Below, in pieces: positions 1-12,607 of a stretch of 12,607 nucleotides of DNA. Numbering within the stretch: the stretch's first letter is position 1; each line of letters opens with the position of its first letter. The notes beneath the pieces are model-generated. The model did no database searches. It saw only the letters and a program-made list of their open reading frames with translations, and was not told where the DNA came from. This stretch comes from an uncultured Porphyromonadaceae bacterium (GTDB lineage: Bacteria > Bacteroidota > Bacteroidia > Bacteroidales > Muribaculaceae). The stretch lies in assembly GCA_947174735.1 (NCBI GenBank), contig CAMWKC010000036.1:1-12607 (forward strand), written 5' to 3'. Made by a program: the position numbers and the translations under genes.

Positions 1-95
1 GGTACCTTGACAATCAGGACTGGATGGACAATATCACCTCCGGAGACTACGAACGCTATTACGACGATATGTATAGTAACCGTCTGAAAGCTTAG
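1..95 (+). CDS. C-terminal end of an unidentified protein (partial, cut by left edge)
   Basis: The frame starting at base 3 is open from the window edge and encodes 30 residues ending in SNRLKA before a TAG stop at 93-95. The other two forward frames are broken: one meets a stop within the first ten bases, the other stops at 85-87. The visible tail is hydrophilic and rich in Asp and Tyr (DWMDN, YERYYDDMYSN), as in the end of a soluble protein. A strong terminator begins 35 bases after the stop, which supports a real gene end. The family cannot be named from so few residues. Confidence 0.6.
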   Translation, partial: YLDNQDWMDNITSGDYERYYDDMYSNRLKA

Positions 96-129
96 GAGTA
101 AGAATCTGAAATAAATTCTTCCTAAAGTT

Positions 130-185
130 ATACATAAAATCCCTGAGGAGTCTTGCATGCAAGAATCCTCAGGGATTTTATGTAT
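130..185 (+). terminator. Strong, possibly bidirectional terminator after the left-edge gene
   Basis: Bases 130-149 and 166-185 are perfect 20-bp inverted repeats. The core is CCCTGAGGA pairing with TCCTCAGGG, flanked by A/T-rich ends (ATAAAA and TTTTAT). The 16-base loop contains a self-complementary CTTGCATGCAAG. The T-run on the right works for + strand transcripts and the matching A-run on the left works for - strand transcripts. It ends the left-edge gene and insulates the gene at 314. Confidence 0.85.
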
Positions 186-223
186 ATTTATGGTAAATTA
201 AGAATAAATCTCTTGAAAATACT

Positions 224-231
224 TATCTTTG
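224..231 (+). promoter_or_regulatory. Possible Bacteroidetes -7 box for the gene at 314
   Basis: TATCTTTG fits the Bacteroidetes -7 consensus TAnnTTTG. It would start transcription near base 236 and leave a 5' leader of about 78 nt. No TTTG -33 element is seen at the usual distance of about 20 nt, so the call rests on the -7 box and on its position between a terminator and a gene start. Confidence 0.4.
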
Positions 232-313
232 TAGACGAATCCATATACGATACTGATTTTACAGACTAAACAAGTTTTATATTAATATTACTAATTTTAA
301 AAACTAACGTGAC

Positions 314-2089
314 ATGAAGAGATTTTACTCTGTTATGGGTGTGGCATTGGCTGGCGTGATGGCTGCTAATGCGTACACAGTGAAGCCGGAGACCGGGTCT
401 TCGGTATGGGAAAATGCCGGTAAGGGCGTGTCGTTCCGTGTTGACGGTAATCAGGCAGCCGGGATGAAGTCAGACCGTGCTAAGGTGTTCGGTAAGCTTC
501 CGGCAGAATCAGTAACGGGCCGGAAAGCTCCGGCACGCGAAGGTGAGGAGTTTAACGTTATCACTACTCCACCGGCAGGAGAGACTTTGACAATGTGCGG
601 CAGCTCAATCTCATTCTTCGTTGACTATGGTGAGGTGATGCAGGATGAGTGGGACGGTCTGGCTTATGACGCTGTAGTCACAGAAGACGGCGATTTCTAT
701 CTTAAGAATCCTATGAGCCGTCTGCAGTGGGATACTTATATCAAAGGTAAAATTACCGATGAGGGAGTAACTTTTGAGTTTCCTCAGCCACTGTACCGTA
801 TTGAAGATGAAGAGATGGGGGTAATTGACCTTTATGCTGAGGTATTGGAATATGCCGAGATAGAGGTTGGTATTGACGATTATGTAGTCACCTTTATACC
901 TGCCGAGGATACCCGTACAATTACTTTCGAGAAAGATGAAGACGGTAACTATGCTATGCTGGGTGACAATATGCTCGGTGTAGTCAACAGTACCGGCAAC
1001 TGGCAAGGTTTCGGTGAGTATCAGTTAGTGTTGAAACCATTTAAGGCTGAAAAGATTGAGGTACCCGCAGATATTAAATACGATTATACCTACGTATTGG
1101 CTGACGAGATTTTCGGCTGGGACCATACTATACTGCGTCCTATGGCTATCGGTTTTGACGGTAGCGACGCCTATCTCAAGGGTATTTCTTTAGCAATGCC
1201 GGATGCTGTTGTCAAGGGTAGCTTTGATGCTGAGACCCAGATACTCAGTATCCCGACTAATCAGTTTATGGGTCAGTTCTACAACTACTATATCTTTATG
1301 ATGGTCGGTGACGGATATGAGTATTATGATCCATCGTGGGATTCGGATATGATTGAAACCAACTTCACAGACGAACCCCTCAGAATGCTCTATGATGCTG
1401 AGACTAACGTATACACTCCTATAATAAATGAAGAGGATCATTTTGCTGTAATGTTTTTCAACTTCGGTAATACCAATGTATCACCTTGTGAATATTACGA
1501 AGTAAACCGTATATACAGTCAGGGTGAAATCACTGACTATGCACCGTTGGCTCCGCAGATTGAAGATATATATTCTGTAAGCGAGTTTGATCCTAACTAT
1601 TCTTACTGCATCGAGTTTATGGTATTCGCCGATAATGCTGATGGTCAGATGCTGATGGATAGTAATATCTATTATAATATTTTCATCAACGGCGAACTTT
1701 ATCCGCTGACTGTTGAGGAATTCCCCGGTCTCGCTAATTTCGGTATTGAATCCATAACCGATATACCGGCATCCTTATCCGACGATGACGATATTTATGC
1801 TTCGGGTAATTTCCACGGCATAGCTTTCCGCAACCAGAATATCTCTACAATAGGTATACGTGCGGTTTATATCGCTGACGGTGTACGCGGTGAGAGTGAG
1901 ATCGTAACTGTGGAGGCTCCTACTAACGGAGTAGAGAATGTGGGCAACAGTCTGCAGGTGGTATCAGAAGAATACTTCGATGTTGCCGGACGCCGTCTGT
2001 CAGGTCCTGTAGCCGGTTCGATAGTACTTCGTCGCGCTGTTATGTCTGACGGTACTGTTAAGACAAGCAAAGTTATGATGCGCAAGTAA
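314..2089 (+). CDS. Secreted protein of unknown function with type-IX-like C-terminal tail
   Basis: This gene encodes 591 residues of unrecognised function. The N-terminus is a clear Sec signal peptide (Lys-Arg, hydrophobic stretch to about residue 16, cleavage likely after ANA at residue 20) with no lipobox. The mature chain is acidic and rich in Tyr, Asp and Phe, without Cys-rich or catalytic motifs that I can see; this resembles beta-sandwich surface proteins. The last 38 residues (554-591, starting YFDVAGRRL, containing VAGSIVLRR and ending KVMMRK) resemble the short C-terminal sorting tails of type IX secretion cargo and their degenerate versions common in Muribaculaceae and Prevotella. 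Surface or secreted location is therefore inferred. The ATG at 314 is chosen because it gives the signal peptide directly. The gene stands alone between two terminators and has no evident link to the B12 operon. Confidence 0.85.
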   Translation: MKRFYSVMGVALAGVMAANAYTVKPETGSSVWENAGKGVSFRVDGNQAAGMKSDRAKVFGKLPAESVTGRKAPAREGEEFNVITTPPAGETLTMCGSSISFFVDYGEVMQDEWDGLAYDAVVTEDGDFYLKNPMSRLQWDTYIKGKITDEGVTFEFPQPLYRIEDEEMGVIDLYAEVLEYAEIEVGIDDYVVTFIPAEDTRTITFEKDEDGNYAMLGDNMLGVVNSTGNWQGFGEYQLVLKPFKAEKIEVPADIKYDYTYVLADEIFGWDHTILRPMAIGFDGSDAYLKGISLAMPDAVVKGSFDAETQILSIPTNQFMGQFYNYYIFMMVGDGYEYYDPSWDSDMIETNFTDEPLRMLYDAETNVYTPIINEEDHFAVMFFNFGNTNVSPCEYYEVNRIYSQGEITDYAPLAPQIEDIYSVSEFDPNYSYCIEFMVFADNADGQMLMDSNIYYNIFINGELYPLTVEEFPGLANFGIESITDIPASLSDDDDIYASGNFHGIAFRNQNISTIGIRAVYIADGVRGESEIVTVEAPTNGVENVGNSLQVVSEEYFDVAGRRLSGPVAGSIVLRRAVMSDGTVKTSKVMMRK

Positions 2090-2109
2090 TTCTGCTGTCT
2101 ACATAATGT

Positions 2110-2154
2110 AAAAATGCCGGGAGAGCCTTAACGGGTTCTTCCGGCATTTTTTTC
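2110..2154 (+). terminator. Rho-independent terminator after the secreted protein
   Basis: AAAATGCCGG at 2111-2120 pairs perfectly with CCGGCATTTT at 2141-2150 around a 20-base loop, and a run of seven T follows (2147-2153). It begins about 20 bases after the stop codon at 2089 and separates this gene from the riboswitch operon. Confidence 0.85.
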
Positions 2155-2234
2155 TGACCTCCTTCATCTTTTATATCAGCTTTAATATTGGAGATTTGAT
2201 CAGGTTTGTCGGAAAGGTGATTTCCCGAAAATTT

Positions 2235-2265
2235 TTTGCAGATTCAAAAGTTAATTGTACCTTTG
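2235..2265 (+). promoter_or_regulatory. Bacteroidetes-type promoter of the B12-riboswitch operon
   Basis: TTTG at 2235-2238 (-33 element) lies 19 nt before TACCTTTG at 2258-2265 (-7 element, consensus TAnnTTTG). Transcription should start near 2270-2272, at the first base of the riboswitch aptamer. The same TACCTTTG box, with a TTTG 20 nt upstream, stands before the second riboswitch at 12500-12531. Two independent copies with correct spacing strengthen the call. Confidence 0.8.
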
Positions 2266-2270
2266 TGGCA

Positions 2271-2422
2271 CGTTTTGGTTCGCGATGACGCGATTAATAG
2301 GGAATCCGGTGAGAATCCGGAACAGACCCGCTACTGTAATTCCTACCACAACTCATCGGTATGATGTCACTGTCAGATTGACGGGAAGGCGCCGGTGAGC
2401 AGGATAAGTCAGGAGACCTGCC
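2271..2422 (+). ncRNA. Cobalamin (B12) riboswitch aptamer
   Basis: The hallmark cobalamin riboswitch segments appear in order: GGGAATCCGGTGAGAATCCGG (split as GGGAATCC and GGTGAGAATCC, 2300-2320), AACAGACCCGCTACTGTAAT (2321-2340), TCACTG (2367-2372), GGGAAGGC (2383-2390), and the 3' B12 box containing GTCAGGAGACCTGCC (2408-2422). A 5-bp hairpin TCGCG/CGCGA (2280-2293) opens the element. Family knowledge: adenosylcobalamin or a related corrinoid binds this RNA and lowers expression of the downstream gene, typically a transporter or B12 pathway gene. Here it precedes a TonB receptor operon, so B12 sufficiency should repress that operon. The 5' 71 nt are nearly identical to the partial element at 12537. 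Confidence 0.93.
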
Positions 2423-2560
2423 ATAACAACATATTGTTTTGTAGTTTTCGGGTTATATTACCACAAAACAGCTATTCGCCTTCCTGTCAGGGGGTGTAAT
2501 ATGGTTTGCTGTGTAATATCGCCTCAATAATAATCCTGTTGCAGCAAACCGTTATGAGGC
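2379..2560 (+). promoter_or_regulatory. Riboswitch expression platform with competing helices up to the start codon
   Basis: Four pairings are visible. (1) TGACGGGAAGGCG (2379-2391, inside the aptamer core) can pair over 13 positions, with one G-U, with CGCCTTCCTGTCA (2477-2489). (2) TGTTTTGT (2435-2442) pairs with ACAAAACA (2463-2470). (3) GGTTTGCTG (2503-2511) pairs perfectly with CAGCAAACC (2542-2550), ending three bases before the receptor ATG. (4) GCCTCA (2521-2526) pairs with TGAGGC (2555-2560), covering the TG of that ATG. Helices 3 and 4 cross and so should exclude one another or form a pseudoknot. No T-run follows any helix before the start codon, so control of translation initiation is more likely than termination. 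Which state is ON cannot be decided from sequence alone. Confidence 0.6.
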
Positions 2561-4773
2561 ATTGCTTGATTACATTTCTGATATTTATATGCCGCCTGTC
2601 TTCACAGGGGGCTTTGTCGGTATATACCATATCGGATGAAGATATGGATTTACCGTTCGGAGGAGGTAATCCTAATGCCGGAGATGAGATAAAGACAGAC
2701 AGCATAAGCAGTGCCGGTAATAATACGTTTGAGCTGCAAGATGTGAAAGTCTATGGCAAAAGTGCCGCTAAAAGACTTGAAGAAGGAGTCTTTTCCGTAA
2801 ATGCTGTCGAGATAGCACCTAACATCAACAAACTGGTTACACTCACTGAAATCATTGACCGCAGCGCCGGGATAAAAATAAGACGCGAGGGTGGGGCAGG
2901 TTCGGAATTCGATCTTACGATAAACGGGATGTCGGGCAACTCGATACGTTACTTTATTGACGGTGTACCGTTGGAAACAAAGGGAGAAGGATTGACATTG
3001 GATAATGTGCCGCTGAATATAGTTGAACGTGTGGAACTGTATAAAGGTGTCGTACCGTCACATTTAGGTCTGGACGCTTTGGGGGGTGCTGTAAATATTA
3101 TCACAAAAAGACAGCGACAGAATTTTCTTGATGCCTCTTACGGTATCGGCTCCTTCTGTACTCATTCAGGTAATCTGACCGGACAGTATTTCATACCCGG
3201 CACGGCAGTAGTGATACAGCCGACATTCAGTATCGGATATTCGAAGAATAACTATATGATGAAGGGAGTTGAGGTGTGGAGTGATGAGGAGGATCGTTAT
3301 ATATTTACGCAGCGACGCAGATTTCATGACGATTACTTTTCGCTTTTCGGTCAGATAGAAGCAGGTGTGACCGATGTCAGGTGGGCAGACCGTTTTTTTG
3401 TGGGTGTCTCTTATAACAAGGTTGATAAGGAACTACAGACCGGAGCTATACAGAACAAAGTTTATGGTGAAGCAAGCCGGCACGCAAATTCCCAAGCCGT
3501 TTCCGCACGCTATAACAAACGCTGGAATCGTATTTCAGTCCGGGCTGCCCTGTCATATACATGGAATCATAGCGAGACTGTGGATACAGCCTACCGTAAA
3601 TACTCGTGGGACGGCACATGGCTGCCTTCATCTGGCAACGAACTGAATAACAAAACACGTACACTACGTGTGTATAAACGTCCGCTGACGATAGTCAACG
3701 CCGGAGCGGATTATGAACTGAACCGACATCATGTATTTTCTCTCAACTATATGTTTAACCGTCGGGGTAATGAGCGATATGATAAAGCGGACAGGTTTTT
3801 TGAGCCATCAAAAGATGTAATTAGTAAACATATAATATCGCTGACATATTTACAAACATTCTTTGACCGCAGATGGCAAACTTCATATTTTGTCAAGGAC
3901 TATATCAATTCACTTTCGATAGAACAGACTGATAATTTTACAATTACCGGGTCTGACAAAATAGATTCCCATACTGTTAAAAGCTATTGGGGAGCTGGTC
4001 TTGGCAGCCGCTATAAGATATGTGAACCGCTCTCGGTCAAAGCATCATACGAACACAGTGTGCGTCTGCCTTTATCCCGTGAGCTTTTAGGCAACGGTAC
4101 AACAGTGTATGCCAATCTTGCGCTGAATCCCGAGAGCAGTAATAATTATAATATAGGTCTCTTTGGCAATGTTCCGGTCGTTAGGACAAGTCAGTTCAGT
4201 TACGAGGTAAACGGATTCATACGTCATGTACAGAATTACATCCGTGCCGCAGTTTCGGAACGTGACGGTATGATACAATATGCCAATGAACCGGCTATAG
4301 ATATAAAAGGAATTGATGTCGAGCTGTCATATCTGTGGAACGGCTGCCTGCAGCTTACAGCAAACGGTAGCTGGTGTGATGCACGTGATCTGAAAAAATA
4401 CAAGACCGACGGCAATCCGTCGGCTACGTACAGAAACCGTGTGCCCAACCGTCCGTGGCTGTTCGGTAATGCTGAAGCTTCTTATACTTTCCGAAATCTG
4501 TTTGCTAAGACCGACCGTCTGAAAGTGGGAATGACATATCAGTATATACACTGGTATTATCTTAACTGGGAGACTTTCGGCACCGCATCATCAAAAGCCC
4601 GTATTCCCACCCAAAATGTTACCGATGTCTATATATCTTATTCATGGAAAGAAGATAGGTACAGTCTCTCGCTGAAGTGTGATAATATATTTGACAGGCT
4701 TGCCTACGACAATTATATGCTTCAGAAGCCGGGCCGTAGTTTTGGAGCTAAGTTCAGAATCTTCATAAATTAA
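2554..4773 (+). CDS. TonB-dependent outer-membrane receptor, B12-riboswitch controlled (BtuB/HmuR-like)
   Basis: This outer-membrane active transporter has 739 residues from the chosen start. The ATG at 2554 gives a compact signal peptide (MRHCLITFLIFIC, to about residue 22). An in-frame ATG at 2506 would add 16 residues, but it lies inside the left arm of the leader hairpin. A TonB-box-like ELQDVKVYG follows at about 60-68, then a plug domain to about 186 with the usual pieces (TLTEIIDRSAGIKI, YFIDGVPL, VERVELYKG, GGAVNIITKR). The rest is a 22-strand-type barrel ending in KFRIFIN. There is no N-terminal carboxypeptidase-like domain, so it is not a SusC type. At about 503-528 it reads VRLP and NPES where haem receptors of the HmuR/HemR group usually carry FRAP/YRAP and NPNL-like motifs. 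Together with the B12 riboswitch this favours a corrinoid or other tetrapyrrole ligand over haem, but the ligand is inferred. It precedes the lipoprotein gene by 19 nt. Confidence 0.93.
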   Translation: MRHCLITFLIFICRLSSQGALSVYTISDEDMDLPFGGGNPNAGDEIKTDSISSAGNNTFELQDVKVYGKSAAKRLEEGVFSVNAVEIAPNINKLVTLTEIIDRSAGIKIRREGGAGSEFDLTINGMSGNSIRYFIDGVPLETKGEGLTLDNVPLNIVERVELYKGVVPSHLGLDALGGAVNIITKRQRQNFLDASYGIGSFCTHSGNLTGQYFIPGTAVVIQPTFSIGYSKNNYMMKGVEVWSDEEDRYIFTQRRRFHDDYFSLFGQIEAGVTDVRWADRFFVGVSYNKVDKELQTGAIQNKVYGEASRHANSQAVSARYNKRWNRISVRAALSYTWNHSETVDTAYRKYSWDGTWLPSSGNELNNKTRTLRVYKRPLTIVNAGADYELNRHHVFSLNYMFNRRGNERYDKADRFFEPSKDVISKHIISLTYLQTFFDRRWQTSYFVKDYINSLSIEQTDNFTITGSDKIDSHTVKSYWGAGLGSRYKICEPLSVKASYEHSVRLPLSRELLGNGTTVYANLALNPESSNNYNIGLFGNVPVVRTSQFSYEVNGFIRHVQNYIRAAVSERDGMIQYANEPAIDIKGIDVELSYLWNGCLQLTANGSWCDARDLKKYKTDGNPSATYRNRVPNRPWLFGNAEASYTFRNLFAKTDRLKVGMTYQYIHWYYLNWETFGTASSKARIPTQNVTDVYISYSWKEDRYSLSLKCDNIFDRLAYDNYMLQKPGRSFGAKFRIFIN

Positions 4774-4792
4774 CCAAAATATATAACCGCTT

Positions 4793-6061
4793 ATGAGAAA
4801 GATTAAATTTCTGCTACTCTTATTCATATCCCTATCCGTAGCTTTCGGCATGACAGGGTGTAAGAGTAATGACGAACCCGGTAACTCCGATGGACCATCA
4901 GTCATTCAGGACTATCATTTTGACCTGTGGGTTGCTCTTGACCGTCACGGCGGTATAGGACGCGATGTGCAGACCCTTGTACGCAGCATTAACTCACTCG
5001 AGGCTGACCAGCCGGAAATTACTTTTCAGGGTGCCGGTACTGAAGTCAACTCACTGCTGTCGCTTGAAACCATACTCAAAGGTGCATATTACTATCAGGT
5101 GCCTGTATCGGGTGACCGTTTTGCCAAGTACGTTATCAGAAATAACGAGATTGAGGTAATTAAGGAACGCCGCTTTCAGACCAATACCTATTCCACACGT
5201 AAGTACACCCACGCATGGCTCAATGATAATACTCTTGTCATTATGGCCTCGAACGGTGATGGCGACAAAATCCTATGGACCAAGCTCAATGCCGACGACA
5301 TGAGCATCATATCCGAAGGTACTCTTGATGTAAGTATGCCTGAAGGAGGAGTGGTATTCACAACTTCAGGTATTCTGACTTATCGTGCCTCGGACAATAA
5401 ACTTTTCTATTTCTATTATGCCAAGAGCGGCGGTAAACGCGCTCAGCGTGTGACACCTATGATAACCGCTGTCATCAATCCCGTCACTATGGCCGTCGAG
5501 AGTAACACACCCTGTTTCCTTGATTGCGAAATGGTAGGCAGCGCTTATGGCGAATTACTCCAGACTTCAACTTTTATTGATGGTAATAACAACCTTTATA
5601 TAGCCTGTTTCAACACTGACGCCGAAGGTAACGAACACAGTCATCTGCTGAAGATACCGGCCGGTTCCACAACCTTTGACCGGAATTATGACGGCTTTAC
5701 TGCCGACGGTAAACTCATCTCAGTAATTTATATGGGTGACAATAAGGTGATGGCTTATGCCCGTGAAGACCAGAGAGGTACCGGAATCGATGACTTCAGC
5801 CACTACTATATTATAATTGATGTGGTGACAAAAGCAAACAGTCCTGTCACTTACAACGGACAGCGTCTGGCCTACAGCAGCGGTCGTTTCTCATCACGTA
5901 TGGCATACGTGAATCATAAGGCCTATATAGGAGTAGATGCCGAGGGCCGTAGCCCGCAGATTTACATATATGATGTTAATACAGGTAAAACTTCTCTCGG
6001 CGCAACTATAGCACCGGGTTACTACTTTGAACAGATCAGAGTAGTGGAAAATCTTAGATAA
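4793..6061 (+). CDS. DUF4374-like surface lipoprotein, putative substrate-capture partner of the receptor
   Basis: The product has 422 residues. It carries a lipoprotein signal peptide (MRKIKF, hydrophobic core, lipobox MTGC) with acylation at Cys23, followed by KSNDEPGNSDG, an acidic spacer of the kind associated with surface export in Bacteroidetes. The body consists of repeated beta-rich units containing lines such as WTKLNADDMSIISEG and IYIYDVNTGKTSLG, typical of propeller-like proteins. I read it as DUF4374-like from overall pattern, not from a search. Family knowledge: DUF4374 and other propeller lipoproteins pair with TonB receptors in Bacteroides, for example XusB for a siderophore, while BtuG, from a different propeller family, captures B12 on BtuB. 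Its position directly behind a B12-controlled receptor suggests the same lid or capture role for the imported tetrapyrrole. No HmuY-type protein is present. Confidence 0.8.
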   Translation: MRKIKFLLLLFISLSVAFGMTGCKSNDEPGNSDGPSVIQDYHFDLWVALDRHGGIGRDVQTLVRSINSLEADQPEITFQGAGTEVNSLLSLETILKGAYYYQVPVSGDRFAKYVIRNNEIEVIKERRFQTNTYSTRKYTHAWLNDNTLVIMASNGDGDKILWTKLNADDMSIISEGTLDVSMPEGGVVFTTSGILTYRASDNKLFYFYYAKSGGKRAQRVTPMITAVINPVTMAVESNTPCFLDCEMVGSAYGELLQTSTFIDGNNNLYIACFNTDAEGNEHSHLLKIPAGSTTFDRNYDGFTADGKLISVIYMGDNKVMAYAREDQRGTGIDDFSHYYIIIDVVTKANSPVTYNGQRLAYSSGRFSSRMAYVNHKAYIGVDAEGRSPQIYIYDVNTGKTSLGATIAPGYYFEQIRVVENLR

Positions 6062-6112
6062 GTATTTGGCTCATACTAAAGTATATAATAGTTTTTCTTT
6101 GTTTCTCTGAAT

Positions 6113-6144
6113 ATCCTCCCGGGGTATTGATATTCCGGGAGGAT
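6113..6144 (+). other. Strong intercistronic hairpin within the operon
   Basis: ATCCTCCCGG (6113-6122) and CCGGGAGGAT (6135-6144) form a perfect 10-bp GC-rich stem with a 12-base loop. It sits in the only sizeable gap (117 bases) of the operon, between the lipoprotein and the chelatase genes. GTTCCTTC follows it, not a T-run, so it is a weak terminator at best. It may stabilise the upstream receptor-lipoprotein mRNA or lower downstream expression. No convincing new promoter was found in the gap. Confidence 0.6.
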
Positions 6145-6178
6145 GTTCCTTCAAATTTAAATTCTCAAAATTACAGAT

Positions 6179-7078
6179 ATGAAACACTTTATTCTTATAA
6201 TTATGCTTTTATGTTATGTAACAGGCACAAAGGCAGTGGATTTTAACGACTGGCCTAAGGAACGCATTGCTATCCTTATGGTACATTTCGGTACTACGTT
6301 CGATGATACAAGAGCACTTACCATTGACGCTATCAATGCTAAGGCACAGGAAATGTTTCCGGATGTAAAAGTTGTCGAAGCCTACACGTCACGTATCATT
6401 ATTGATCGTCTCAAAAAGCGCGGTATATCGAAACCTACACCTCAGGAAGCCTTGCTACGTCTGGCTGCCGACGGATTTACTCATGTCGTAGTACAGGGTA
6501 CCAATATCATAGACGGTATCGAAGCTGAAGTACTGCGTAACGAAGCAGCCCGTATGGCACCGTTCTTTACTGAAATCCGTGTAGGACGTCCGTTGCTTTA
6601 CTCTATTGAAGACTGTGAGAAAGTGGTAAGTATTCTGGCCGGACAGTATGGCCGATATACCGGTAAATCATCAGCTGTGGTACTTATAGGTCACGGCACA
6701 TCGACGCCGGCCAATGCCATATATTCACAGATTGATTATATGTTTTCTGCCGACGGCACTCCGGCTTTTCATGTGGCTACTGTCGAAGGTTATCCTACAT
6801 ATAACACCACTCTCGCCCGTCTGAAAGCACAGCATGTCAAAAATGTAACACTCGTACCATTTATGTTTGTGGCCGGTGATCATGCCCGTAACGATATAGG
6901 TGTGGAATGGCGCGAGCAGTTAGAGCAAGAAGGGTACAAGGTATCGGCCGTTCTTGAAGGTTTAGGTCAGCTAAGTGAGATACAGGATATATACATTGAG
7001 CATATAAAGGAAGCTTTCGCTGCCCCTGTACCTGATGCGATGAGCCGTAAGAAATCCTATATCATGGAAAATCTTTAG
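6179..7078 (+). CDS. cbiK: Exported CbiK-type sirohydrochlorin cobaltochelatase (periplasmic)
   Basis: This is a 299-residue class II chelatase homologue. CbiK proteins insert Co2+ into sirohydrochlorin in anaerobic B12 synthesis. The three metal-site residues known from CbiK structures (His145, Glu175, His207 in Salmonella) are all visible, with matching spacing: His172 in LIGHG, Glu203 in TVEGYP and His235 in VAGDHARND. The N-terminal half has the usual IAILMVHFGTT opening strand (30-40). Unlike cytoplasmic CbiK, it begins with a Sec signal peptide (MKHFILIIMLLC, cleavage likely after TKA at residue 19), so it should act in the periplasm, like the exported CbiK(P) of Desulfovibrio, which has been linked to iron or haem transport. 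It lies 8 nt upstream of the giant chelatase gene and is very probably co-transcribed with it. The direction of metal transfer and the true tetrapyrrole partner are unknown. Confidence 0.92.
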   Translation: MKHFILIIMLLCYVTGTKAVDFNDWPKERIAILMVHFGTTFDDTRALTIDAINAKAQEMFPDVKVVEAYTSRIIIDRLKKRGISKPTPQEALLRLAADGFTHVVVQGTNIIDGIEAEVLRNEAARMAPFFTEIRVGRPLLYSIEDCEKVVSILAGQYGRYTGKSSAVVLIGHGTSTPANAIYSQIDYMFSADGTPAFHVATVEGYPTYNTTLARLKAQHVKNVTLVPFMFVAGDHARNDIGVEWREQLEQEGYKVSAVLEGLGQLSEIQDIYIEHIKEAFAAPVPDAMSRKKSYIMENL

Positions 7079-7086
7079 ATTGGATT

Positions 7087-10000
7087 ATGTCAGGAGTTAG
7101 AAAAATAACGTTGATTGTCGACATTCTTATTCTGTCGGCTGCTGTAGCTGTAATAGTCTATTGTATATGGTTGAGGCCGACAAGAATCCTTGTAGTCAAT
7201 CCGTTACCTGCGCAGTCAGCGGAAATCGTGCTTAATAATGACAGCCGTCATATCCGGGTTACATGTAAACCTATGGAAGAAGCGACGGATTTTGAGAAGT
7301 ACGATGCCGTACTGATGTACGGACGCGGACTGTATCTTGACTCCTTACAGCTTCGGTCACTTGACAAAGCAGCAAAGAAAGGTGTACCGGTCTTTACCAA
7401 CACACTGCGCAATTTCAGTTTTGTTGTCACACATAATCTTGATTCGACACAGTGTGCTCTGCTACAGCAGTATTTTTCAAATCCCTGTCGTGATAATTAC
7501 CGCAATATGCTGCGGTATGTGAGAAATATTGCCACACCGAAACGTTTCGGTGACCATGATTATGCTTCGCCTGTTGAGATGCCTTCTGAAATGTATTATC
7601 ACTTGGCAGCGGGTAAATATTTCAAAGACCCGGATAGTCTCACTGAACACCTTATAAAAACAGGATTATATAATGACGGAGGGGAGAATGTGGCGTTTAT
7701 CTCAGGAGTGAGTTTTCCGGTAGAAAATAACCGTACTCATGTTGATACTATTGTAAGACGCCTGACACAGCTTGGCTATAATGTATATCCTCTGACTGCT
7801 ACCGGACGGCGACGCGGCGAAATGATAAAAGCTGTCCGGCCGAAAGCTATAGTCTATTTTCCTATGGGACGCTTAGGTAATGATTCGCTGATAAACTGGG
7901 CTTATGATAATCGGATTCCCCTGTTTATGCCATTCCCGCTTACTCAGAGTCGTGAAGACTGGCTCGACATCAGTAAACCTTTAGGAGGAGGTTCACTTAA
8001 CGCACGTGTTGTAATACCGGAAACAGACGGCGGTATGATACCGCTATGTATCTCGACACAGAATCCGAATGAGGAAGGTTATATTCTTTACACTCCCGAA
8101 AAGGAAAGGACGGACGCTTTCATAGAGCAGTTTGAACGATTTATGGGCCTGAAGACAAAAGCTAACAAAGAGAAGAAGATAGCTATTTGTTACTTTAAAT
8201 CACCCGGTAAAGACGCGCTTCTCGCCTCCGGTATGGAAGTGGTACCGTCACTCTATAATTTTCTGAACAGACTCCGTGCCGAAGGTTATGATGTGAGCGG
8301 CCTGCCACCGACACTTGAGCAATTCAGGCAGCAGCTTATGTCACGGGGTAGTGTAATGGGTTCGTATGCTCCGGCTGCCCAGAAACAGTTTATGAAAGAA
8401 GCTAATCCGTTATGGATTCAGAAGAAAGATTATGAAGGCTGGGCTAAAGAAGTATTGTTACCTGAGAAGTATGCCGAAGTAGAGACACATTACGGCAAAG
8501 CGCCCGGCAGTCTGCTTGCACGTGACGACAGTCTGGCGGTAGCAGCAATACGTTATGGAAACATTCTGTTGTTTCCGCAGCCGCGTCCGGCATTAGGTGA
8601 CGACGAATTTAAGATTGTGCACGGTGCGGAGGTAGTACCGCCTCATTCCTACATCGCTCCTTACCTTTACATGCAGAAAGCCTTTGGTGCCGATGCTCTT
8701 ATACACTTCGGCACTCACGGTAATCTTGAATTTACTCCCGGTAAGAATGTAGGCCTGTCACAAGCTGACTGGGCCGATGTGCTTATCGGAAACCGTCCTC
8801 ATTTTTACTTTTACACTACCGGCAACGTAGGTGAGGCTATTATTGCCAAAAGACGTAGTCACGCAGTTCTGGTGACACATCTCACACCTCCATACGTGGA
8901 AAGCGGTCTGCGGCAAAAATATAATGCACTTATCGAAGAATTGCACGATGTTATCGCTGAGCCTGCACGTAACAATACGAAGCTGAAACAACAGATAATA
9001 CAGTATGGTCTGCACAGAGATCTAGACCTTGACTCCGTACAAGGAGGAGTCTACACTATAGACGAACTTAAGAAGGTGGATTCTTTTGTAGAGGAATTAG
9101 CCAATGAAAAGATAACCGGTGCCTTTTACATCATGGGTGAGCCTTATTCAGATAAAGATATGCTCGTGAGCGTGCTTGCTGTCATGGCAGACAAGATAGC
9201 TTACGAACGTGCGAAAAAAGACTACGAAAAGGGCAAAATTCCGAAAGAATCACTACAGGACTTCACTTACATAGCCCACCATTATCTTCCCGGTGTAAAA
9301 AGAGAGCTGACAGAAGTTCTTTCCGGACATGGGGCTACCTCGGTATCCGATTCAAAGGAAGCTCTTGAAATACGAAGGCTTCTTATCGAGTCGGCCGGTG
9401 CTGAGATTGATGCGATGTTAAAGGTGCTTAACGGCACGCCTGTGCGTCCTGCTCCCGGAGGAGATCCCGTACTGAATCCTAATGTATTACCAATGGGGCG
9501 GAACATGTACAGCATAAATGCCGAGACTACTCCCGGTAAAACGGCCTGGAATAACGGAGTGGTTTTGGCAGAGCAGACTTTACGTAATTATTTTGACCAA
9601 CACGGAGAATATCCGAAAAAAGTCAGCTATACGTTCTGGGCCGGAGAATTTATATCTTCGCAAGGAGCGACTGTGGCACAGGCTATGCGTATGCTCGGAG
9701 TGGAACCCGTCAGAGATGAGCAGGGACGTGTGATAGATATGAAACTGACTCCCTCCGAGGAACTCGGCCGACCGAGAATCAATATTCTTGTGCAGGTATC
9801 AGGACAGCTTCGCGATATTGCCGGTTCACGTCTCAAAATGCTTACCGACGCTGTAGCGCTTGCTTCACAGGCTACTGACGATATTTATCCGAACTATGTA
9901 GCCGAAGGCACTATCGCGCAGGAAAAAGAACTCGTGGAGAAAGGAGAGTCGCCGAAAAGAGCGAGAGAACTCTCCACTATGAGAGTATTCGGACCGGCCA

Positions 10001-10980
10001 ATTCCGGTTACAGTACCGGAATGTTAGGTTATACCGAAAACTCCGGAGAATGGGATGACCGTCAGGAACTTGTCGAGGGTTATATCAATAATATGTGTGC
10101 CATGTATGGTGATGAGGAGAACTGGGGCAACATGAATAAAGACCTTTTTACAGCTGCCATTACAGGTACCGATGTGATAGTACAGCCTCGTCAGAGTAAC
10201 ACATGGGGCCCTATCTCTCTTGACCATGTCTATGAGTTTACAGGTGCGTTGTCTTTAGCCGCCACTTCGATAAACGGTAAAGAACCTGATGCAGTGTTAG
10301 CTGATTACCGCAATTCTTATCTTCCGCGTCTTCAGAACGCTAAAGAGGCGGTAGCAGTAGAGACAAGAGCCACGTTGCTGAATCCGGAGTATATAAAAGC
10401 CCGTATGAAAGGAGATGCCACTACTGCCCAGATGTTCGGAAAGATATTCCGCAATATTTTCGGTTGGAGTGCCATGCGTCCGAGTGCCCTCTCAGCCAAT
10501 CTGTATGATGAGCTTTACGACATGTATATCACCGATAGTAACGGACTCGGTATTGAAGAATATTTTGACAAAGTGAATCCGGTGGCTCTGCAAGAGATGA
10601 CAGCGACAATGCTTGAAAGTGCCCGTAAAGGTTTTTGGAATGCAGACAGTGAACAGTTGGCAGCCACAGCTAAGCTTCATGCCCGTCTTACCGAGCGTCA
10701 CGGTGCACCATGCACCGAATTTGTGTGTGCCAATGCAAAACTTCAGGAGTTCACTTCGTCTCAGCTTAGTGAAGAAACTGCCGATAAATACAGAAATGCC
10801 ATTTCTGAAGCTACAGCTCAACCGGCAGAAGGTAAAGTATTAAAGGAAGAACGTGTCAGTCTTCTTCCCGATTCCACCTCCGGTTCTGTCTCAGGATATG
10901 TGATTGCCGCAATAGTAGGTATAGTGTTTATTATACTGTTACTATTCATTATAAAAAAGAGGAAAGAGAGGCAAAAATGA
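7087..10980 (+). CDS. cobN: CobN/HmuS-family (Mg-chelatase H-type) chelatase anchored at both ends
   Basis: The product has 1297 residues, close to HmuS of the hmu operons. Family motifs appear in order: HFGTHGNLEFTPGK (His540, His544), an AKRR and HLTPP segment just after it, APGGDPVLNP and LPMGRNMY (from about 789), and FGPANSGYSTG (from about 968). Membrane helices lie at about 7-29 and 1270-1289. The C-terminal helix ends in KKRKERQK, which by the positive-inside rule stays in the cytoplasm, so the large domain should face the periplasm. Canonical CobN is a soluble cytoplasmic subunit that inserts Co2+ into hydrogenobyrinate diamide with the CobS and CobT ATPases. No such ATPase genes occur here. 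HmuS relatives have been implicated in anaerobic removal of iron from haem. I therefore prefer a HmuS-like envelope metal-exchange enzyme, here under B12 control. It overlaps the next gene by ATGA. Confidence 0.9.
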   Translation: MSGVRKITLIVDILILSAAVAVIVYCIWLRPTRILVVNPLPAQSAEIVLNNDSRHIRVTCKPMEEATDFEKYDAVLMYGRGLYLDSLQLRSLDKAAKKGVPVFTNTLRNFSFVVTHNLDSTQCALLQQYFSNPCRDNYRNMLRYVRNIATPKRFGDHDYASPVEMPSEMYYHLAAGKYFKDPDSLTEHLIKTGLYNDGGENVAFISGVSFPVENNRTHVDTIVRRLTQLGYNVYPLTATGRRRGEMIKAVRPKAIVYFPMGRLGNDSLINWAYDNRIPLFMPFPLTQSREDWLDISKPLGGGSLNARVVIPETDGGMIPLCISTQNPNEEGYILYTPEKERTDAFIEQFERFMGLKTKANKEKKIAICYFKSPGKDALLASGMEVVPSLYNFLNRLRAEGYDVSGLPPTLEQFRQQLMSRGSVMGSYAPAAQKQFMKEANPLWIQKKDYEGWAKEVLLPEKYAEVETHYGKAPGSLLARDDSLAVAAIRYGNILLFPQPRPALGDDEFKIVHGAEVVPPHSYIAPYLYMQKAFGADALIHFGTHGNLEFTPGKNVGLSQADWADVLIGNRPHFYFYTTGNVGEAIIAKRRSHAVLVTHLTPPYVESGLRQKYNALIEELHDVIAEPARNNTKLKQQIIQYGLHRDLDLDSVQGGVYTIDELKKVDSFVEELANEKITGAFYIMGEPYSDKDMLVSVLAVMADKIAYERAKKDYEKGKIPKESLQDFTYIAHHYLPGVKRELTEVLSGHGATSVSDSKEALEIRRLLIESAGAEIDAMLKVLNGTPVRPAPGGDPVLNPNVLPMGRNMYSINAETTPGKTAWNNGVVLAEQTLRNYFDQHGEYPKKVSYTFWAGEFISSQGATVAQAMRMLGVEPVRDEQGRVIDMKLTPSEELGRPRINILVQVSGQLRDIAGSRLKMLTDAVALASQATDDIYPNYVAEGTIAQEKELVEKGESPKRARELSTMRVFGPANSGYSTGMLGYTENSGEWDDRQELVEGYINNMCAMYGDEENWGNMNKDLFTAAITGTDVIVQPRQSNTWGPISLDHVYEFTGALSLAATSINGKEPDAVLADYRNSYLPRLQNAKEAVAVETRATLLNPEYIKARMKGDATTAQMFGKIFRNIFGWSAMRPSALSANLYDELYDMYITDSNGLGIEEYFDKVNPVALQEMTATMLESARKGFWNADSEQLAATAKLHARLTERHGAPCTEFVCANAKLQEFTSSQLSEETADKYRNAISEATAQPAEGKVLKEERVSLLPDSTSGSVSGYVIAAIVGIVFIILLLFIIKKRKERQK

Positions 10981-11477
10981 AAATTCTGTTATTAATCTTT
11001 TTTATAATGATAGCAATAAGTGCAGTGGTGAAACTGTCAATTATGCCTGTCAGAATAATGGTAGCCTACAGTCTTTTCTGGGGTATTGCGGCCGGAATAC
11101 TTACAATTATAATGACCGGATTATCAAAACAGGAATTATCCTCTTTCTTTAACATAAAGGAAGTGGCAGCTTTCGAATTTATAGAAGTGCTGATTTTCAT
11201 AGGTTTTGTATTTTCCCGTAGCAATAAATCGGTATTATTGCGTTTTTATCCCGGTTTAATGATTGCAGTGCCGTTAGCTTTAGTATCGTCAGTAGCAGTA
11301 CGCTTATTTCCCGGTATTGATTTTAATCTGACAGGTGTCCTGACAGGGCTGGTAGTGTTTCTGACTGTCGGAGGGGCAGCTTTGTTATGCCGTTACTTGC
11401 AGGCCGGCAAGCAGAGTCTTTATCTGATTTCTTTTATTATTATGGTTATTACTATTGTAATCTATGGTATGGCATGA
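10977..11477 (+). CDS. HmuT-like polytopic inner-membrane protein
   Basis: This is a 166-residue, very hydrophobic protein with about five predicted helices: roughly 3-20, 24-47, 65-81, 88-110 and 117-137, with a last one near 147-164. The helix count is by eye. A charged loop (SKQELSSFFNIKE) lies between the second and third. I recognise no catalytic motif. The call rests on position: in P. gingivalis hmuYRSTUV the gene between the CobN-like HmuS and the ExbB-like HmuU is a similar small membrane protein. ATGA overlaps join it to both neighbours, which implies translational coupling and a complex made in fixed ratio. Its role is unknown; it could be a scaffold or permease part for the chelatase and the channel. 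Confidence 0.75.
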   Translation: MKILLLIFFIMIAISAVVKLSIMPVRIMVAYSLFWGIAAGILTIIMTGLSKQELSSFFNIKEVAAFEFIEVLIFIGFVFSRSNKSVLLRFYPGLMIAVPLALVSSVAVRLFPGIDFNLTGVLTGLVVFLTVGGAALLCRYLQAGKQSLYLISFIIMVITIVIYGMA

Positions 11478-12064
11478 ATGGAATTTTTAATATATTATTC
11501 GTAATCTCTAACGGGCTACTTATTCCGGTGGTTCTGATACTTCTATACCTTTTATGCAAAGCACTAATCATCGTAGTCGGTTTCTATAACGAATACCGGA
11601 AACAGAAACTCATTTCTTCTGCCATGCAGGAGATAACTCATAATTATTCTTATGAACGGCTTGTAGATACTGACGTCAGTCTTGGCAGTATGTCAGATGC
11701 TCCTGTGGTCAGCTGTCTGCGCGATATGGTCGCACATAAAGATGACAGGATTTATTGTGAACATACCTTAGCAGACTTTCAGGTAGAAGTGCAGAAAATA
11801 CTCTCCAAAAACAGAATGTTGATAAAATTCGGCCCTATGCTTGGTCTTATGGGTACGCTAATTCCTATGGGACCGGCTCTTGTAGGACTTGCAGTGGGTG
11901 ATATAGCTTCAATGGCTTACAATATGCAGGTGGCGTTTGCTACGACAGTAATCGGAATGTTAGTAGCCGGTATCGGTCTGGCTACACTTCAGGTGAATCA
12001 GCGTTTCTATGCCCGCTCATTTAATGCTCTTGAGTTTATATACCTTAAAATTACTGAAAGATGA
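11474..12064 (+). CDS. MotA/TolQ/ExbB-type proton-channel protein (HmuU-like)
   Basis: The product has 196 residues. It shows ExbB/TolQ topology: one N-terminal helix (about 9-37), a long cytoplasmic stretch (38-118, Lys/Arg/Asp-rich), and two closely spaced helices (about 119-141 and 153-175). These carry the family signature FGPMLGLMGTLIPMGPAL and FATTVIGMLVAGIGL. ExbB-like proteins form the pentameric stator through which protons flow to drive a periplasmic partner. An upstream in-frame ATG at 11387 would add 29 residues, but it lies inside the previous gene and gives a Tyr-rich, non-helical start. The ATG at 11474 overlaps the previous stop as ATGA, matching the pattern at both neighbouring junctions, so it is preferred. 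The partner is the DUF2149 protein just downstream. Confidence 0.88.
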   Translation: MNGIFNILFVISNGLLIPVVLILLYLLCKALIIVVGFYNEYRKQKLISSAMQEITHNYSYERLVDTDVSLGSMSDAPVVSCLRDMVAHKDDRIYCEHTLADFQVEVQKILSKNRMLIKFGPMLGLMGTLIPMGPALVGLAVGDIASMAYNMQVAFATTVIGMLVAGIGLATLQVNQRFYARSFNALEFIYLKITER

Positions 12065-12393
12065 AGAGAAATCCGATTCTTTATGAAGATGATGAAAGGG
12101 ATAACCCGTTAGGGATGCTTACTAATCTCTTTGATGTGGCTATGGTATTTGCAGTTGCTCTCATGGTGGCACTGGTGACTCATTTCAATATGAGTGAGAT
12201 TTTTTCCAAGGAAGATTTCACCATAGTGAAAAATCCGGGAGCAGACAACATGGAAATAATAACCAAAGAAGGAAGCGAAATAAAGAAGTATACTCCCTCG
12301 GATGCTGAAAATCCCGCCTCCGGTAACAAAGGCCGGCGTGTGGGAACGGCGTATCAGTTGGAAAACGGTGAGATTATCTATATACCCGAATAG
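12061..12393 (+). CDS. DUF2149 ExbD-like partner protein (HmuV-like)
   Basis: This is a 110-residue protein with a short cytoplasmic N-terminus, a single membrane helix (about 23-42) and a small periplasmic domain to the end. The segment NPLGMLTNLFDVAMVF is the DUF2149 signature. Asp25 sits at the start of the helix, as the proton-carrying Asp does in ExbD/TolR, and this supports an ExbD-like rotor role inside the upstream channel. The periplasmic part ends GTAYQLENGEIIYIPE and is shorter than in ExbD (about 140 residues in total). It overlaps the channel gene by ATGA (12061-12064) and is the last gene of the operon. No tonB gene is visible, so the pair either uses a distant TonB or drives the chelatase or HmuT-like protein directly. 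Confidence 0.85.
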   Translation: MKRNPILYEDDERDNPLGMLTNLFDVAMVFAVALMVALVTHFNMSEIFSKEDFTIVKNPGADNMEIITKEGSEIKKYTPSDAENPASGNKGRRVGTAYQLENGEIIYIPE

Positions 12394-12499
12394 TGCTTTC
12401 GCCTGTAAAATATCTGTCATAGTGTCAGACTTCTACATAGTATATATAGAATAACTGCATACAGAAAATATACAGATGTTAAAAAAATTAACAGGATTC

Positions 12500-12531
12500 T
12501 TTGGTCAATTAGAAAAATAACCTTACCTTTG
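12500..12531 (+). promoter_or_regulatory. Bacteroidetes-type promoter of the second B12 riboswitch
   Basis: TTTG (12500-12503), then 20 nt, then TACCTTTG (12524-12531). The -7 box is identical to that of the first riboswitch. The 106 bases between the DUF2149 stop and this promoter are A/T-rich and hold no clear terminator. Transcripts of the upstream operon could therefore run into this leader. Confidence 0.75.
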
Positions 12532-12536
12532 CAATA

Positions 12537-12607
12537 CGTTTTGGTTCGCGGCGACGCGATTAATAGGGAATCCGGTGAGAATCCGGAACAGACCCGCTAC
12601 TGTAATT
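12537..12607 (+). ncRNA. Second cobalamin riboswitch (5' part, cut by right edge)
   Basis: The 71 visible bases match 2271-2341 of the first riboswitch at 69 positions. They include GGGAATCCGGTGAGAATCC and GACCCGCTACTGTAATT. The only two differences change the loop of the first hairpin from ATGA to GCGA, leaving the TCGCG/CGCGA stem intact. The 3' half, B12 box and regulated gene lie outside the window. It implies that a second B12-controlled transcription unit starts directly after this operon. Confidence 0.9.

Follow-up and report, generated by a model that had tools for sequence, protein, structure and literature searches.

The seven-gene operon described here lies behind a cobalamin (B12) riboswitch on a 12,607-nucleotide (nt) contig (C36; CAMWKC010000036.1, positions 1 to 12,607) of an uncultured Porphyromonadaceae bacterium of the Muribaculaceae, whose assembly (GCA_947174735.1) comprises 2.49 Mb in 388 contigs and is 72% complete. 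The whole contig is referred to as the window. The operon encodes a TonB-dependent receptor (TBDR), a beta-propeller lipoprotein, an exported chelatase of the CbiK family, a membrane-anchored protein resembling CobN and HmuS, and a HmuT/ExbB/DUF2149 trio. It is tentatively proposed to serve a headless anaerobic B12 pathway as its front end in the envelope, importing a non-corrin tetrapyrrole and changing its metal in the periplasm. In a near-identical relative the operon is contiguous with genes for corrin-ring assembly and, since the upstream enzymes were not found, this contiguity points to a tetrapyrrole at a stage before corrin formation.

The operon and its recurrence in the family

Riboswitch 1 (2259..2439; all features of the window are on the forward strand) is a full-length match (1-189) to RF00174, with 112.4 bits (E 4.5e-28, gathering score 31.5). 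It is followed by the TBDR gene (2554..4773; Pfam Plug E 3.2e-12), whose start was set at the ATG at 2554, a TTG upstream at 2506 being a possible alternative, and by the gene for a lipoprotein with lipobox Cys23 (4793..6061). Next come the genes for the CbiK-family class II chelatase (6179..7078; PF06180 257.5 bits), which has a hydrophobic N-terminal segment, and for the CobN/HmuS-like class I (de)chelatase (7087..10980; PF02514 902.8 bits, PDB HmuS 9d26), with hydrophobic spans at residues 9-27 and 1271-1289. The last three genes encode a HmuT-like protein with six hydrophobic spans (10977..11477), assigned by position and hydropathy with no Pfam match, an ExbB/MotA-like proton channel protein resembling HmuU (11474..12064; PF01618) and a HmuV-like DUF2149 protein with one hydrophobic span (12061..12393; PF09919 111.6 bits, hydropathy). 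Five of the six gene junctions overlap or are shorter than 20 nt, the exception being the 117-nt gap between the lipoprotein and CbiK genes. A second riboswitch aptamer (12525..12607; RF00174 55.5 bits), which the initial annotation does not mention, is truncated at its 3' side by the contig end. The initial annotation had described this gene set, in this order and almost without gaps, and had placed the two chelatase folds (CbiK and the CobN-like protein) in the periplasm; this description is borne out by RF00174, Pfam, NCBIfam and hydropathy.

Within the family, the CobN-like protein was matched in 65 of 397 genomes. Short fragments aside, the matches form two classes, one of about 1,300 amino acids (aa) with 57-98% identity (22 genomes and 23 loci, genome G536 having two copies) and one of mostly 1,400-1,500 aa with about 35-52% identity to the window protein. 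Members of the shorter class lack the methionine-rich insertion (MRI) of HmuS and are referred to as the MRI-less clade. CbiK lies directly upstream of the CobN-like gene in 21 of the 21 MRI-less-clade loci with sequence there, and the receptor and lipoprotein precede CbiK wherever the contig extends that far. The arrangement is not a chance assembly, since 19 other genomes also have CbiK immediately ahead of the CobN-like gene. None of the 18 HmuS-type loci retrieved (L089-L106) matched the window CbiK or lipoprotein, and divergent CbiK queries gave a single 30-residue match (L101, E 0.001). A search at the level of the order returned matches in 24 of 295 genomes, with the window as sole member of the 57-98% class; one of these matches, in G008 (1342 aa, apparently insertion-poor), has ExbB and DUF2149 genes adjoining but no adjoining CbiK or lipoprotein gene. 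A contig scan with the CobN-like protein as query found two loci.

Scored over the clusters of CobN-like and CbiK genes, a B12 riboswitch stands before the receptor gene in 17 of the 17 MRI-less-clade loci with upstream sequence (Rfam RF00174; 16 complete, L072 truncated). The remaining six of the 23 loci begin inside the operon and so have no upstream sequence. Among HmuS-clade loci the count is 0 of 17; all 18 HmuS-type loci were scanned, and only L094 was positive. From its sequence, riboswitch 1 is inferred to permit operon expression when B12 is scarce.

CobN-like protein, receptor and lipoprotein

HmuS removes iron from haem, and its hallmarks are the MRI (domain IV) together with Met79 and His254, which bind haem at the head/neck interface (PMC12583661). 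In a tree of 37 CobN-like sequences, obtained by a quick method with midpoint rooting and two very long outgroup branches, 17 MRI-less sequences (support 100) are split from 17 HmuS-clade sequences (support 96). The alignment took 17 of the 23 MRI-less sequences, leaving out the second copy of G536 and five partial ones. In place of the insertion the window protein has 27 residues and the clade 17-30, compared with 125-179 in the 17 HmuS-clade rows. Met79 and His254, kept in 17 of 17 aligned rows of the HmuS clade, are replaced by Arg80 and Met260 in the window protein, with Arg and Met each in 17 of 17 sequences of its clade. Ser1014, which is predicted to help hold the propionates of the porphyrin (PMC12583661), is Ala in all 17. 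Conversely, all 17 sequences retain Phe502, His506, His538, Ser1067, Ser1199, Trp1202 and His1209, and 16 of the 17 retain Gln1198; the window protein has His538, Ser1067, Gln1198, Ser1199, Trp1202 and His1209, as well as the QPRQSNTW motif of HmuS. By these residues the central cleft looks largely intact and the haem-specific site gone, a change that may reflect a different ligand. A place inside the haem-specific clade would have counted against the initial annotation; tree and residues put the protein outside it. The protein stays well under the CobN equivalog cut-offs (558 bits where the best-scoring model requires 1619, and 428.6 where TIGR02257 requires 822), and the Pfam search, confined to the operon, found no ATPase partner gene for it.

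One locus of G499 stands apart. On the reverse strand of L094, a TBDR gene, a HmuY-family gene and a CobN-like gene of HmuS length lie behind a B12 riboswitch. The encoded protein, X_G499, falls in neither clade with clear support. It has a 134-residue insertion, with Met79 replaced by Pro, His254 by Met and Ser1014 by Ala, and it is the sole insertion-bearing protein with a B12 riboswitch. L094 is possibly a B12-controlled hmu intermediate.

An hmu paralogue placed under B12 control could still strip iron from haem. Such a role would fit the shared hmuRSTUV core: hmuYRSTUV of Bacteroides thetaiotaomicron and Porphyromonas gingivalis shows the same succession of TBDR, CobN-like, HmuT-, ExbB- and DUF2149-type genes, and the central-cleft residues are mostly common to both. 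It would also fit the impairment on haem iron of a Bacteroides fragilis mutant deficient in both BtuS1 and BtuS2 (PMC6460266). However, the window operon has no HmuY, a XusB-like lipoprotein and CbiK are inserted, the MRI is absent, Met79, His254 and Ser1014 are changed and a B12 riboswitch leads the genes. No HmuY model match was obtained among the eight proteins of the window, which leaves hmuYRSTUV incomplete, with R-, S-, T-, U- and V-type genes only; this agrees with the B12-riboswitch-led relative of hmuRSTUV without HmuY that had been described from the DNA. Moreover, none of the 17 sequences has the MRI, Met79 or His254, they form a separate clade, and a second, longer homologue is also present in seven genomes (that of G499 being X_G499). 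A haem-iron system is therefore considered improbable, and the haem-specific reading of the CobN-like protein was set aside on the tree and the residues.

The receptor and lipoprotein resemble a siderophore system more than a B12 receptor. The best PDB match of the receptor is 9gbc_A (E 5.6e-96), a XusAB complex, and its similarity to Escherichia coli BtuB is confined to the plug region. A family profile of the lipoprotein (16 rows) matches B. fragilis XusB (E 6e-6). Its AlphaFold model, of modest quality (predicted local distance difference test, pLDDT, 65.9; predicted template modelling score, pTM, 0.73; 4-row alignment), has BfXusB 9hqe as top match (E 6.6e-14), and BtuG-type chains rank far below XusB for this propeller, both among the best 50 of 1163 fold matches. 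The single sequence gave nothing credible against the PDB with phmmer. The label "DUF4374-like" found no Pfam model to match it, and what stands of it is the likeness to XusB by family profile and fold; as modelled, the lipoprotein has a DUF4374-type beta-propeller fold. The genome has its own BtuB1/BtuG1-like pair (L110 1546-4909, contig C17) behind another B12 riboswitch, with a receptor matching BtuB1 (E 2.8e-135) and a YncE-family lipoprotein. The candidacy of the operon pair as a canonical BtuB/BtuG B12 receptor is weakened by this separate pair and by the XusA/XusB likeness. XusABC shares the receptor and the lipoprotein fold, and PepSY proteins occur in modules neighbouring this operon type; its ligands are iron-siderophores, whereas the operon has a B12 riboswitch and chelatases instead (PMC13142918). 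In two loci (L080 6335-7843; L082 4053-5564, reverse strand) an additional gene between those for the lipoprotein and CbiK encodes a protein with 39-41% identity to the L068 PepSY protein. This inserted PepSY-type protein may reduce the imported metal complex.

Finished or late corrinoids, such as cobinamide, cobyrinate or unusual cobamides, might also be what is taken up, with the chelatase folds binding them or handing them over and no metal chemistry involved. The B12 riboswitch, the BtuFCD-type importer next in line and the corrinoid genes nearby are all consistent with such uptake, as is the prediction that Bacteroidetes have the highest share of cobinamide salvagers, tetrapyrrole-precursor salvagers being mostly Firmicutes (PMC6461909). 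Yet a separate BtuB1/BtuG1-like pair has its own riboswitch, the operon receptor and lipoprotein are XusA/XusB-like, and the retention of the central HmuS histidines, of QPRQSNTW and of both CbiK histidine motifs suggests catalysis. Corrinoid uptake is on balance unlikely.

Linkage to a B12 pathway whose early steps were not found

Genome G617, whose CobN-like protein is 98% identical to that of the window, provides the continuation that the window lacks. Its contig runs on to riboswitch 2 (117.5 bits in this copy, RF00174), TBDR2, SLP2, PepSY, BtuF, BtuC, BtuD and an ApgM-like gene, then to another TBDR and PepSY, and then to CbiHC, CbiET, CbiGF, CbiJD, CbiA and cob genes. In the window genome the later part of this arrangement is found on contig C4. 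Riboswitch 2 is complete in the relative L068 (8070-8254), where it leads TBDR2-SLP2-PepSY-BtuFCD. The ExbB and DUF2149 genes follow the CobN-like gene in 15 of the 22 MRI-less-clade loci with downstream sequence. The HmuT/ExbB/DUF2149 trio is thus not a constant neighbour of the CobN-like gene. Of the seven loci that lack it, six (L077, L079, L080, L082, L085 and L086) continue from the CobN-like gene straight into BtuF and BtuC, and L087 does not. An ApgM-type protein (2,3-bisphosphoglycerate-independent phosphoglycerate mutase family) is encoded between BtuD and the cbi genes in L077 (11346-12386) and L125 (674-1714). In L131 of G605 (reverse strand), the stretch between CbiK and BtuF holds short matches to the C-terminal part of the CobN-like protein, to ExbB (E 1.5e-6) and to DUF2149 (E 1e-10). 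There, CbiK and the BtuFCD-cbi genes remain without a receptor or lipoprotein gene at that position; the sequence of these fragments suggests remnants of a lost operon middle.

The early steps of the pathway were sought across the family. Searches for HemB in 37 genomes and for HemC in 35 found neither gene in any of them, while each search was positive in 11 of 14 control genomes; the Bacteroides ihuae control was negative for both. CbiL scored above its cut-off in 0 of 30 family genomes and in 4 of 14 controls. Matches to TIGR01467 (CbiL) below the cut-off occurred in 30 of 30 genomes, those listed lying in CbiHC and CbiGF frames. The TP-methylase matches of 37 genomes were in frames of CbiHC, CbiGF, CbiET or RsmI size, assigned by size with example proteins identified, plus nine weak frames, and no SUMT was seen among them. 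A CbiL hidden in the nine weak frames was ruled out, these being one RsmI-type family: the G345 copy, with which the other eight share 52-64% identity, is RsmI-type with 99.3 bits (below the cut-off of 167.9). Judged by HemB, HemC, CbiL and SUMT, the family appears headless for B12. Tetrapyrrole-precursor salvagers likewise have a corrin pathway without its upstream part; the accessible parts of the papers proposing precursor salvage (PMC6461909, PMC6593275) name no uptake machinery for them, and the window family additionally gave no CbiL match above the cut-off. The steps up to precorrin-2 are reported to be missing from P. gingivalis (PMC6461909), and a gap at precorrin-2 has been put forward to explain B12-requiring Bacteroidales (PMC6593275).

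CbiGF was matched in 67 of 397 family genomes, or 64 after three rows (G365, G492 and G509; cross-matches or a 61-residue fragment) were dropped. It is present in 18 of the 22 genomes with an MRI-less CobN-like gene, against 46 of 375 without one, a comparison that assumes the same 397 genomes in both searches and whose Fisher p-values, uncorrected for shared ancestry and physical linkage, are not taken as proof. Forty of these 46 genomes belong to genus g199, which has no CobN-like match. There, a B12 riboswitch, a TBDR, a CbiK lipoprotein (364-370 aa), another TBDR and CbiHC/cbi genes follow one another in 4 of 4 loci examined (L117-L120), and CbiK was found in 7 of 7 genomes searched. By analogy, this layout suggests an independent second design for the same need.

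CbiK itself retains both histidines of the GHG and GDH motifs in the alignments, which we take to be catalytic. With 196.7 bits it does not reach the cut-off of 400 of the NCBIfam equivalog for sirohydrochlorin cobaltochelatase, and by this score it counts as a relative of CbiK rather than as that equivalog. Its solved relatives are the CbiK of Desulfovibrio vulgaris (2xvx, E 1.2e-40), presumably periplasmic and the closest, Salmonella CbiK and FetB of P. gingivalis (9b86, E 7.9e-33). The window CbiK adjoins a CobN-like gene, whereas we know of no CobN-like partner for the D. vulgaris enzyme. In 16 of 16 searched genomes with an MRI-less CobN-like gene, all CbiX matches lie inside CbiK genes. 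G536 has three CbiK genes, and G573, outside these 16 genomes, has two. The CbiK N-termini inspected are signal-like by hydropathy, that of the third G536 copy included, and this signal-bearing CbiK is the sole CbiK/CbiX type found in these genomes, which are 72-99% complete. Cobalt insertion, if carried out by a CbiK/CbiX enzyme in these cells, would probably take place outside the cytosol.

The Iht system of P. gingivalis also combines a TBDR, an exported CbiK homologue (IhtB/FetB) and an ATP-binding cassette (ABC) importer. Its components as listed in the accessible parts of PMC10913741 and PMC13402209 include no CobN-like protein, and the chemistry discussed there is that of haem/iron or Mn-porphyrin; FetB, a CbiK-like lipoprotein, inserts manganese into protoporphyrin according to the review PMC13402209. 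Five family loci (L134, L135, L136, L138 and L139) have the order TBDR-CbiK or TBDR-lipoprotein-CbiK with no adjoining cbi or CobN-like genes, a layout reminiscent of Iht/FetB.

Two further explanations bear on this linkage. In the first, environmental cobalt-tetrapyrroles or chelates would serve as a cobalt source for B12 synthesis, the metal being stripped out and the ring discarded. B12 riboswitches commonly control cobalt uptake, and the receptor and lipoprotein resemble siderophore-type XusAB. Nevertheless, cobalt acquisition leaves unexplained both the position of CbiK beside the CobN-like gene in 21 of 21 loci and the failure to find ring-making genes, and no recognised cobalt permease was found in the operon by Pfam, the transporter search being limited to the operon; it is regarded as quite improbable. 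In the second, put forward in the initial annotation, the metal of imported B12-like corrinoids would be removed, inserted or exchanged, in part to salvage cobalt. In its favour are two exported chelatase-fold proteins behind a B12 riboswitch. Against both the exchange and the salvage stand the separate BtuB1/BtuG1-type pair, the XusA/XusB-like parts and the link to corrin-ring assembly genes, which points to a tetrapyrrole before corrin formation. A substrate preceding the corrin is preferred because the linked cytosolic enzymes act before a corrin exists, and because we know of no removal of cobalt from an intact corrin. Metal exchange on corrinoids is thus very improbable.

Proposed pathway, precedents and flanking features

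The proposed front end for the headless pathway could operate as follows. B12 scarcity would allow expression of the operon through the riboswitch. The XusAB-like receptor and its lid lipoprotein would capture a non-corrin, B12-related tetrapyrrole and move it to the periplasm; candidate substrates are siroheme, sirohydrochlorin and an isobacteriochlorin of the C20-methylated "factor III" type. The CobN-like protein, with the HmuT/ExbB/DUF2149 trio as proton channel, might then remove an unwanted metal and the exported CbiK might insert cobalt. The BtuFCD-type importer would pass the cobalt form to the cytosol, where CbiHC, CbiET, CbiGF, CbiJD and CbiA would finish the corrin. On a wider view, Bacteroidales could live on the half-made B12 of their neighbours, taking cobalt-free or wrongly metallated isobacteriochlorins, swapping the metal in the periplasm by means of a class I de-chelatase paired to a class II chelatase, importing the product and completing cobalamin, with C20 methylation done elsewhere or dispensed with; this is possible, if doubtful.

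Several observations weigh against the proposed pathway. The hardest point is the missing CbiL. On present knowledge, CbiH depends on a ring methylated at C20. Without CbiL, its known substrate, cobalt-factor III, must therefore arrive with that methyl group in place, or CbiH must accept a non-methylated ring, and neither the import of a C20-methylated ring nor such tolerance of CbiH is documented in the literature examined. Both the CobN-like protein and CbiK fall below the NCBIfam equivalog cut-offs. CbiGF went unmatched in four of the 22 genomes that carry the CobN-like gene (G321, listed as 99% complete, G573, G623 and G655), and CbiGF occurs without the CobN-like gene in six genomes outside g199 (G395, G445, G516, G556, G572 and G605), two of which, G395 and G516, also have no CbiK match. 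G321 and G663, in which the contig starts inside the CobN-like gene, gave no CbiK, and the five TBDR(-lipoprotein)-CbiK loci described above exist away from cbi genes. Finally, the btuS1 btuS2 double mutant of B. fragilis grew worse on haem iron than its parent and the single mutants, the btuS1 single mutant having no significant defect (PMC6460266), which would bear on the window operon if BtuS1 belonged to the MRI-less clade.

Parts of this picture have precedents. The BtuS family has been described as a third type of CobN with a predicted role in metalloporphyrin salvage, credited to Rodionov 2003, and BtuS1 and BtuS2 of B. fragilis have been studied (PMC6460266). BtuS1 is likewise an exported CobN-like paralogue distinct from HmuS, and its length, about 1,320 codons when the flanks are subtracted from a 4,094-nt cloned fragment, is near the 1,297 of the window protein (PMC6460266). 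It was studied as a haem-iron factor, and the word "riboswitch" is absent from the main text of PMC6460266. HmuS homologues in other clades have been suggested to have distinct functions (PMC13227078). The BtuS proteins and the P. gingivalis precedent are thus already published; the combination of B12 riboswitch, TonB receptor, CbiK and CobN-like protein was itself not found in print, being described in none of the titles and abstracts found, mostly outside the subscription literature.

The operon links orphan corrin genes, in one bacterial family, to an uptake and metal-handling module led by a B12 riboswitch, and it may be a route by which such bacteria obtain the B12 skeleton from their neighbours. 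The presence of corrin-ring genes without precursor genes in P. gingivalis was reportedly called an enigma in the title of a paper in 2000, and the link found here opens the question to tests with defined substrates. If the proposal holds, cobalt insertion, normally cytosolic, would have been relocated beyond the inner membrane, cross-feeding in the gut would gain a further currency in B12 intermediates as opposed to finished cobamides, and HmuS-type proteins would have a second function beyond haem. An annotation of CobN or CbiK in Bacteroidales should not be taken as B12 prototrophy.

Upstream of the operon, positions 314-2089 of the window encode a protein of 591 aa whose N-terminus is signal-like and which matches no Pfam or NCBIfam model. 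A likely intrinsic terminator of this gene (2110..2151), an 18-nt inverted repeat of 89% complementarity followed by a T-run, probably insulates the operon from it. A pattern scan placed a promoter-like motif of the Bacteroidota type (TTTG...TACCTTTG) at 2235..2265; this TTTG-N-TAnnTTTG motif, which we take to be the Bacteroidota promoter consensus, begins at 2235, 5' of riboswitch 1.

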